Origin: Candidatus Gastranaerophilales bacterium
GTDB lineage: Bacteria > Cyanobacteriota > Vampirovibrionia > Gastranaerophilales > Gastranaerophilaceae
DNA: 40,969 bases
Assembly: GCA_944325085.1 (NCBI GenBank)
Contig: CALUYT010000056.1
Location: forward strand, 1 to 40,969
Reading direction: 5' to 3'
Below are positions 6,000 through 8,159 of the stretch, piece after piece. How positions within the stretch are numbered: the first letter of the stretch is position 1; each line of letters starts with the position of its first letter. The position numbers were made by a program, and so were the translations under genes. The notes beneath the pieces are model-generated. The model saw only the letters and a program-made list of their open reading frames with translations. It was not told the DNA's origin and made no database searches.

Positions 6000-6971
6000 T
6001 TAACCAATCATATCTTCTTCTTCCACTGGGCTTGGAGCTAAGTCTAAACCAAAGTGGTGTAATCTTTCGATAACTTCATCTGATGATTTTTTACCGAAAT
6101 TTTTAATATTTAATAAATCATGTTCTGATTTTTTCAATAATTCAGCCATTGAATTGATGCTTGCTCTTTTTAAGCAGTTGTATGCTCTTACTGACAATTC
6201 TAATTCTTCAATTGTCATTGTTGGAGCTTCTTCTTCTTCACTTACTTTTTCTTCAACTTGTGGCAATACTGCAATTGTTGGTTGTCCAGTAATTGAAGCA
6301 ATTTGCATAAAGTGTTCGATAAGTAAGTTTGAAGCTTGGCTTAATGCATTTTGAACATCAATTGATCCGTTTGACCAGATTTCTAAAGTTAATTTATCAA
6401 AGTCTAAAGCGTCACCTACACGAGCGCTTTCTACGTTGTAACTAACTCTTTTAATTGGCATAAATGTTGCATCGATAGGTAAAATATCGATTGTTGCATC
6501 TTTAGCATCTCTTGGAACATCATTTGGAACGTATCCTTTTCCTGTGTCAACAATAATGTCAGCATGGAATGATCCGCCATCTGCAACTGTACATATTAAC
6601 CAGTCTGGATTTACAACTTTTACACCTGCAGGTAATTGAATATCACTTGCTAATACAGGACCAGGTTTATCCACGTCAATTCTTAAGTGTTGAGATTCTT
6701 TAGAATCAGTTTTTACAACTAATCCTTTTAAATTTAACATTACGTCAATTACATCTTCTAAAACACCAGGAATTGCTGTATATTCGTGAGTAATACCTTC
6801 AATTCTTGCACTTGTAACAGCAGTTCCTTCTAGACTTGATAATAATACACGTCTTAAAGAATTACCGATAGTAGTACCGAATCCTCTTTCTAATGGTTCT
6901 ATTACAAACTTACCATATTGAGAACCGTCAGAACTTGTTGCTGTATTAACACATTTAATTTTTAATTCCAT
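6000..6971 (-). CDS. rpoA: DNA-directed RNA polymerase subunit alpha
   Basis: The 323-residue protein has the two-domain alpha architecture. Residues 1-228 are the dimerising N-terminal domain, with PLERGFGTTIGNSLRRVLLSSLEG, which anchors beta and beta-prime. An acidic linker (EEKVSEEEEAP) follows. Residues 250-312 are the C-terminal domain, with SVRAYNCLKRASINSMAELL and LLNIKNFGKKSSDEV, the helix-hairpin-helix that binds UP elements and activators. It is preceded by CTAGGAG and lies between rpsD and rplQ. Confidence 0.98.
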   Translation of the reverse strand: MELKIKCVNTATSSDGSQYGKFVIEPLERGFGTTIGNSLRRVLLSSLEGTAVTSARIEGITHEYTAIPGVLEDVIDVMLNLKGLVVKTDSKESQHLRIDVDKPGPVLASDIQLPAGVKVVNPDWLICTVADGGSFHADIIVDTGKGYVPNDVPRDAKDATIDILPIDATFMPIKRVSYNVESARVGDALDFDKLTLEIWSNGSIDVQNALSQASNLLIEHFMQIASITGQPTIAVLPQVEEKVSEEEEAPTMTIEELELSVRAYNCLKRASINSMAELLKKSEHDLLNIKNFGKKSSDEVIERLHHFGLDLAPSPVEEEDMIG

Positions 6972-7043: not shown

Positions 7044-7646
7044 CTACTTAGAATAATATTCAATTACAAGTTGTTCCTTGATTTCTGGATCTAATTCTTC
7101 TCTTTCAGGAATTCTATCGAATGTAATTTTTAATGCTTCTTTATCGATTGTCATCCATGCTGGAGCACAAGCCATATCGATCATAGCAATAACATCATTT
7201 AAGTATTTAGCGCTTTTTGCTTTAACTGTTACAACATCACCCGGTTTTACTAAGTAAGAAGGAATATCTACCTTGTTACCATTAACTAATACGTGACCGT
7301 GGTTAACGATTTGTCTAGTTTGTTTACGAGTGATACCGAAACCAGCTCTGAATAAGATGTTGTCTAGTCTTGCTTCTAATAATTGTAATAGAATAGTACC
7401 TGTAACACCTTTTCTTCTTGCAGCTTCATTGTAGTATCTTACGAATTGTTTTTCACTTACCAAATATGTGAATCTAATTTTTTGTTTTTCTGCTAAGTGA
7501 ATTGCATATTCAGAAAGTTTCTTTCTTACAGCACCGTGTTGACCAGAAGCTGTTTGTCTCATTGAAGAAGTTAACTTTCTATTTGATAAGTCTTTAACTT
7601 TTTTGTTTCTAAATAATTTGTTGGTTGGTCCTGTATATCTTGACAT
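7044..7646 (-). CDS. rpsD: 30S ribosomal protein S4
   Basis: The 200-residue protein starts MSRYTGPTNKL, the short cyanobacterial/plastid-like S4 N-terminus without zinc-binding cysteines. SASGQHG-type residues (TASGQHGAVRKKLSEYAIHL), the S4 RNA-binding domain (LEARLDNILFRAGFGITRKQTRQIVNHGHVLVNG) and the end EQLVIEYYSK are all present. S4 is a primary 16S rRNA binder and often represses its own operon. Cyanobacteria usually encode rpsD elsewhere; here it lies between rpsK and rpoA, after a 126-nt spacer able to fold into a branched RNA. That makes autoregulation at this site plausible. Confidence 0.97.
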   Translation of the reverse strand: MSRYTGPTNKLFRNKKVKDLSNRKLTSSMRQTASGQHGAVRKKLSEYAIHLAEKQKIRFTYLVSEKQFVRYYNEAARRKGVTGTILLQLLEARLDNILFRAGFGITRKQTRQIVNHGHVLVNGNKVDIPSYLVKPGDVVTVKAKSAKYLNDVIAMIDMACAPAWMTIDKEALKITFDRIPEREELDPEIKEQLVIEYYSK

Positions 7647-7670
7647 TTTTTAAATTTCTCCTTTTCTTGT

Positions 7671-7771
7671 GCGGGGCATCTATGGTTTACGTTTGGACTA
7701 ATTACGCAAGCCCCCGCCTATGTTACATCTGTTCGGTATTAACCGATTGCCATTAAATATGGCAAACATAG
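7671..7771 (-). ncRNA. Candidate structured RNA between rpsK and rpsD (possible S4-responsive leader)
   Basis: Starting 2 nt past the rpsK stop, the transcript can pair CTATGT (7771-7766) with ACATAG (7723-7718). This closes two perfect hairpins: TTGCCAT/ATGGCAA (7765-7759 with 7753-7747) and TCGGT/ACCGA (7746-7742 with 7737-7733, loop TAAT). Directly next to it, GCGGGG (7717-7712) pairs with CCCCGC (7676-7671). This is a three-way junction beside a GC-rich stem in a very AT-rich genome, ending 7 nt before the rpsD ribosome site. The pairing is seen by eye; the function is inferred from S4 autoregulation in other bacteria. Confidence 0.5.
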
Positions 7772-7772
7772 A

Positions 7773-8159
7773 TTATACTCTACGTTTTTTAGGTGGACGA
7801 CATCCGTTGTGAGGAATTGGTGTTACGTCCTTGATCAAAGTGATTTCTAAACCAGCAGCTTGAATAGCTCTGATTGCTGTTTCTCTACCTGAACCAGGTC
7901 CTTTGATATAAACTTCTACTTTTTTCATACCTTGGTCTATAGATTTTTTAGCTACCATTTCAGCTGCAGATTGAGCTGCGAATGGAGTTCCTTTTCTTGC
8001 ACCTTTAAATCCAGATGCACCAGCTGTTGCCCAAGCAATAGCATTACCTTGAGTATCTGTAGAAGTTACTATTGTATTATTGAAAGTTGATTGAATATGT
8101 ACAACTCCCTGTAATACATTTTTCTTTTCTTTTTTCTTTGTTTTTTGTGGTCTTGCCAT
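7773..8159 (-). CDS. rpsK: 30S ribosomal protein S11
   Basis: The 128-residue protein is a normal S11. [21 protein letters not shown] is the conserved N-terminal block, followed by [42 protein letters not shown] and the basic end [14 protein letters not shown]11 lines the mRNA exit channel near the Shine-Dalgarno helix. The N-terminus is lysine-rich. It lies 92 nt after rpsM and 126 nt before rpsD. Confidence 0.98.

Follow-up and report, generated by a model that had tools for sequence, protein, structure and literature searches.

Does the spacer between the ribosomal protein genes rpsK and rpsD in Candidatus Gastranaerophilales bacterium hold a regulatory RNA and, if so, which part of the spacer forms it and to which protein would it respond? 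The window, 40,969 nucleotides of contig CALUYT010000056.1, carries infA, rpsM, rpsK, rpsD, rpoA, rplQ, truA, rplM, and rpsI on its minus strand, the strand of every feature described here. The upstream gene, rpsK, encodes ribosomal protein S11 (7773–8159; NF003698, E 1.8e-60). It is followed by rpsD, encoding S4 (7044–7646; NF003717 and TIGR01017, E 1.1e-72 and 3.1e-66), which starts with ATG (7644–7646) and is both the presumed regulated gene and the presumed source of the ligand. Downstream lie the two genes presumed to be co-regulated, rpoA (6000–6971; TIGR02027, E 5.6e-103) and rplQ, encoding L17 (5517–5945; TIGR00059, E 1e-34). The rpsK-rpsD spacer (7647–7772, 126 nt) folds at -32.4 kcal/mol (z -2.61), with 3 of 200 shuffles folding equally well.

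A conserved hairpin upstream of rpsD

The structured RNA in this spacer is real, but it is smaller than the branched structure proposed in a preliminary description of the locus. When spacers from 12 genomes belonging to the genus are compared (that of the window included), the 3′ half alone is common to them. This half contains a core hairpin of 48 nt (7671–7718), a putative S4-responsive leader that covariance models R1 and R2 recover in its own genome (3.6e-12 and 1.4e-14, respectively), the sequence of the window being among those used to build both models.

The hairpin consists of two helices, P1 and P2. P1 is a 6-bp stem in which GCGGGG (7712–7717) pairs with CCCCGC (7671–7676), the latter strand being placed by structure counts; it corresponds to the GCGGGG/CCCCGC stem of the preliminary description. 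Two-sided changes occur in 4 of its 6 pairs, and 98.5% of cells are paired. The 5′ strand of P2 (7703–7711) comprises G8, a mismatched C9, and then UUGCGUA; its 3′ strand (7685–7693, from the alignment and structure counts) ends in A33 (7686) and C34 (7685). Here 5 of 8 counted pairs show two-sided changes and 91.6% of cells are paired. The base of P2 is the pair G8-C34, directly above P1 on the 5′ side, which is G-C in 65 of the 66 aligned rows and G-U in the remaining one. Above it, C9·A33 is a C·A mismatch in 64 of 66 rows, followed by UU/AA pairs. The apical loop (7694–7702) contains a conserved UAGUCCA, with GCC in most other genera seen; GCC or GUCC is found in 65 of 66 aligned loops. 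The asymmetry of the hairpin lies entirely on the 3′ side, in an 8-nt bulge at the P2-P1 junction, CAUAGAUG (C-A-U-A-G-A-U-G; 7677–7684), in which columns 38, 39, 40, and 42 are invariant across all 66 rows.

Four loci carry compact forms of the element: L126 (33 nt), L127 (37 nt), L137, and L139. Judged by eye, these lack the GCC loop and keep P1, P2, and the bulge, which reads CAUAGGUG in L137 and L139. The last two stand outside the 66-row alignment and were missed by R1 and, as genomes G105 and G095, by R2. The computed fold of L127 matches the proposed structure, and the computed best fold of L126 differs from it.

Support for the two helices comes from covariation. An initial alignment of 27 distinct cores shows two-sided changes in 6 of 13 pairs, a count reached by none of 500 shuffles; one of five measures, the number of further pair types, is ordinary (204 of 500 shuffles are as high). 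A search of 88 loci with R1 returned 72 matches (68 distinct), and in the alignment of these 68 sequences 9 of 14 pairs change on both sides, for a total of 96 two-sided cells. Shuffled alignments average 26.7, with none of 500 as high, and sliding the register yields no more than 25. Since this alignment was fitted to the earlier covariance model, the count was repeated on a hand-anchored alignment of 66 rows, from which the compact L126 and L127 were excluded. The two-sided cells then number 92, compared with an average of 28.1 and a maximum of 40 in 1000 shuffles. In P1 the changes fall at three positions: C-G to U-A (4 rows), G-C to A-U (9 rows) or C-G (4 rows), and G-C to A-U (1 row). Six of the 66 rows cannot form the outermost P1 pair, and pairs 13-29, 15-27, and 16-26, in the middle and upper part of P2, are disrupted in 12, 17, and 29 rows, respectively. 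The compensatory changes that the preliminary description had proposed to seek in homologous spacers are thus present, and they are located in the core hairpin. This is the conserved, covarying part of the spacer despite an unremarkable single-sequence folding energy (7671–7718, z -0.33, 68 of 200 shuffles as good). A conserved structure directly 5′ of a ribosomal protein gene and covariation in its support are two marks of a ribosomal-protein leader (r-leader), in which an operon-encoded ribosomal protein would also bind and feed back on expression.

The upstream half of the spacer

All of the pairings in the preliminary description exist in the fold of the spacer: the closing stem (7771–7765/7724–7718), two hairpins, and the GCGGGG/CCCCGC stem, between whose strands lies an inner stem-loop that had not been described. 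The closing stem and the two hairpins form a 5′ branched domain (7718–7771) outside the conserved element. It was suggested that this domain belongs to the functional RNA and that a second CTATG copy (7680–7684) competes for the closing stem as a switch. The domain folds well in the window genome (z -4.07 for 7718–7772 and -2.80 for 7719–7772), and the window is among the 7 of 86 loci that hold a competing CTATG. However, the three nearest relatives by the RpsD tree (L022, L027, and L035) have no counterpart, only 35–37 nt at the place of the branched half (z -1.2, -1.65, and +0.67). Across the 86 loci this half varies in sequence and in length, from 5 to 238 nt (the distance from rpsK), with less than 25 nt upstream of the core in 7 loci; L024 and L025 retain the core although just 7 and 11 nt precede it. 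The second CTATG copy is itself the start of the conserved bulge, whereas the competing strand is not conserved, the complement of the 5-mer occurring in 7 of 86 upstream spacers against 5.2 expected. The branched domain as a functional unit is rejected for this lack of conservation, and a switch confined to the window species, built from the full branched RNA and the closing stem, has very little chance of being correct. The original proposal, an unusually placed regulatory RNA of the S4 type, survives as regards the structure and its position; the branched architecture falls with the unconserved 5′ half.

Upstream spacers in general are more structured than their shuffles (79 loci, duplicates included; median z -2.3, 45 of 79 below -2). 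Most of them do not resemble one another, as if any hairpin were favored after rpsK.

In locus L053, a dispersed repeat, rich in palindromes and some 135 nt long (GCCGGTGT...ACCGCCGTTG...AAGCAATCTTTGATTGCACAGGCGG), lies between rpsK and the leader, and the same repeat is found in L003, L012, L031, L043, L049, L106, L114, and L130. A scan of five loci against Rfam gave nothing for it at E up to 0.1. BLAST finds none in genomes G000, G003, G006, and G007 and 7, 11, 6, 2, and 3 matches, some of them partial, in G001, G004, G009, G012, and G053.

Position relative to the rpsD start site

The Shine-Dalgarno sequence of rpsD, AGGAG (7658–7662), begins 8 nt after P1. In 79 of 86 loci, a set that includes 11 repeated sequences, the distance from the end of P1 to AGGAG is 8–10 nt, and AGGAG is separated from ATG by anything from 5 to 13 nt. 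Since the first spacing is nearly constant while the second varies, the element is held relative to the Shine-Dalgarno sequence.

This spacing bears on the possibility that the hairpin acts in mRNA processing or stability, as a nuclease site or a protective stem that splits rpsM-rpsK from rpsD-rpoA-rplQ and sets their stoichiometry with no feedback. An intercistronic position is compatible with such a role, and structure is common in the upstream spacers too (z below -2 in 45 of 79). Tight spacing to the Shine-Dalgarno sequence would not be expected of such an element, however, nor would an 8-nt bulge with four invariant positions, a near-invariant mismatch, and a conserved loop, and we consider this explanation improbable.

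Start codons were parsed in 102 of 104 loci. The rpsD start is ATG in all 88 motif-bearing loci and in the variants L137 and L139, while the 12 motif-less loci start with TTG (7), GTG (1), or ATG (4), that is, with TTG or GTG in 8 of 12; the rows are related and partly duplicated, so that the association rests on few independent events. The two unparsed loci, both from the outgroup (L013 and L016), have TTG starts. An ATG start in company with the leader would fit a strong start that needs feedback.

Three other modes of action were considered and rejected. A short open reading frame that would start at the AUG of the bulge (7679) stops before rpsD in the window, overruns the rpsD start out of frame in L002, and is, by eye, not conserved. 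Masking of the Shine-Dalgarno sequence by pairing finds at most 3 bp between AGGAG and the conserved bulge and loop (by eye). A transcription attenuator is opposed by the absence of any terminator-like site on the minus strand between 6900 and 9400.

Distribution of the element

A scan of 84,980 genomes of a species collection with an exact pattern tuned to the genus of the window returned 34 records with the conserved core, of which 14 are titled Gastranaerophilales, Melainabacteria, or Cyanobacteria, 19 "bacterium," and one Muribaculaceae. In all 34, rpsD is the next gene downstream. R1 extended the element to other genera, and rpsD is also directly downstream in each of 40 divergent R1 matches that were fetched so as to spread over genera. 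An R2 scan of 383 genomes of the order finds the element in 185 (E up to 0.01; 15 of 52 genera), and one of 386 genomes of the phylum finds it in 110 (E up to 0.05; 14 of 142 genera); the two samples overlap, and the stricter filters of these scans lose weak matches. Every matching genome in both scans, including all 185, has a single match and belongs to one family, f1. Among the members of the genus without a match, no rpsD was found in G138 and G008 and only the last 29 rpsD codons are present in G347, so that their spacers are unreadable. No such element and no R1 match was found in the spacers read from six genera of f1 (g20, g23, g24, g25, g26, and g27) or in four loci from other families of the order. 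Outside the phylum the search consisted of the exact, genus-tuned pattern, and a divergent relative could exist elsewhere.

On the best RpsD tree (93 rows, with L137 and L139 treated as a separate group) the motif-bearing rows require two changes, and no bootstrap tree of 200 separates them from the other rows by one branch; a single gain of the element is still conceivable.

The record titled Muribaculaceae bacterium (L040, JAMPCZ010000006.1) has a Gastranaerophilales-type rpsD locus, and its RpsD groups with the others. A search of this genome for a second rpsD, which in a chimeric bin might have come from Bacteroidia, found none, the sole rpsD product being 94% identical to the protein of the window, and the record is probably mislabelled. 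The S4 proteins of the outgroup loci L014, L015, and L016 have an N-terminal CxxC, which we take to be typical of the zinc-binding form; those read from family f1 start without CxxC.

Relationship to known S4 leaders

The S4 target of the E. coli alpha operon is found at rpsM, where it folds into a pseudoknot that covers the start site. There S4 exerts feedback on the same set of ribosomal protein genes, but the corresponding family, Alpha_RBS, has no Rfam match to the window or to the spacer. None of the Rfam 15 families attains its gathering score anywhere in the window. With the limit relaxed to E 10, the region 7400–8000 returns only three matches, all far below threshold and none of them to Alpha_RBS, and at E up to 5, five divergent relatives return nothing beyond two chance snoRNA matches.

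According to the survey of r-leaders by Eckert and Weinberg (2020; PMC7247131), S4 is a confirmed leader ligand in Gammaproteobacteria and Firmicutes and a predicted one for leaders of rpsD or its operon in Clostridia, Fusobacteriales, Bacteroidia, and Flavobacteria. The Bacteroidia and Flavobacteria leaders resemble the present element in position. As listed in that survey they are hairpins associated with rpsD, rpoA, and rplQ, the same position as here, so that the location between rpsK and rpsD, described earlier as unusual, is not unique; they too are described there as having no meaningful similarity to rRNA. They belong to another phylum, and the comparison covers position, listed genes, and dissimilarity to rRNA. 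The Clostridia and Fusobacteriales leaders concern the same operon with S4 as the likely ligand, but rpsM heads the list of genes they regulate, so that their position is upstream of rpsM (PMC7247131), whereas the present element is found between rpsK and rpsD; the conserved GAAA (Clostridia) and GUAA (Fusobacteria) described for them (PMC7247131) each occur in 0 of 66 apical loops here. In the Bacillus/Firmicutes rpsD leader (Grundy and Henkin, as cited in PMC7247131), an upstream RNA lets S4 regulate the gene that encodes it, as we propose here, and the hallmark given for it is a conserved, rRNA-like GUAA (PMC7247131). GUAA is present in 18 of 68 cores, mostly paired or at a stem edge, and is not a conserved feature: it spans the P2/loop edge in 7 of 66 rows (the window included), lies in the 3′ strand of P2 in 12 of 66, and is absent from all 66 apical loops and all 66 bulges.

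Mimicry of 16S rRNA at the sequence level was also rejected. The short matches seen by eye, UAGUCCA and CGCACAAG, do not stand out from chance when compared with the 16S rRNA of a congener (L059): for two cores, 488 and 550 of 1000 shuffles align as well, as do 531 and 539 of 1000 random pieces of the window. A 16S search of the window's own genome gave no match.

A description of the hairpin was not found in the literature searched, where it could be hidden in supplements. A study of candidate RNAs of human microbiomes (PMC8040213), for example, does not use the words rpsD or Cyanobacteria in its main text, and the element could be in its supplement. The best reading is that the hairpin is a new ribosomal-protein leader.

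Proposed feedback by S4

We propose, with a probability of roughly three in four, that the 48-nt hairpin is a cis-acting r-leader within the S13-S11-S4-alpha-L17 operon through which S4 represses rpsD-rpoA-rplQ at translation initiation. Free S4, when in excess over 16S rRNA, would bind the bulge/mismatch region of the hairpin, and the complex would stop or trap a 30S subunit at the adjacent Shine-Dalgarno sequence. Translation of rpsD would then fall and, by coupling, so would that of rpoA and rplQ, while rpsM and rpsK, lying upstream, would escape repression. Because the 3′ edge of the complex would be only 8–10 nt from the Shine-Dalgarno sequence, where a collision with the 30S subunit is expected, occlusion or trapping is the simplest model.

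We infer S4 as the ligand from gene adjacency and from its confirmed or predicted role elsewhere: rpsD follows in every locus read, and S4 leaders exist in other lineages. The hairpin could instead be a genuine cis-regulator of rpsD that responds to S11, L17, a ribosome-assembly factor, or a small molecule. The sequence itself names no ligand, the conserved bulge and loop would suit many, and the S11 gene rpsK is directly upstream. Yet the position of the element is fixed to the Shine-Dalgarno sequence of rpsD and not to rpsK, rpsD is the next gene downstream throughout the loci read, and leaders of rpsD or its operon in other lineages have S4 as their confirmed or predicted ligand in the survey cited above (PMC7247131); we therefore regard a different ligand as unlikely.

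If control by S4 is correct, a distinct S4 feedback RNA exists in one family of gut-dwelling cyanobacterial relatives that do not photosynthesize. It would differ from the S4 leaders available for comparison here and would add another example of unrelated RNAs regulating a single ribosomal protein. With a length of 48 nt, and natural versions of 33–37 nt, the hairpin could also serve as a compact model for how S4 recognizes an RNA without obvious copying of rRNA sequence.

Possible coupling between the apical loop and the mismatch

The GCC or GUCC loop and the C9·A33 mismatch occur together in 64 of the 66 aligned rows as computed. Of the two remaining rows, L128 has the loop, and on hand reading its apparent C-C is a column shift caused by a one-base insertion in the bulge, which brings the count to 65 of 65 rows with the loop. 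The other, L113, has a loop altered to GGUC together with C9-G33. The lineages without the loop (L126, L127, and L137 with L139) have, by eye, a C-G pair at this position or lack both bases. This co-occurrence, which involves about four lineages, suggests a tertiary contact between loop and mismatch. Helix 18 of 16S rRNA contains a GGC/GCC pseudoknot near the S4 site. It is possible, though we hold it to be rather doubtful, that the apical GCC of the leader folds onto G8-C9 beside the C·A mismatch as a small pseudoknot of the same kind, in which case the rRNA target of S4 would be mimicked by shape and not by sequence.
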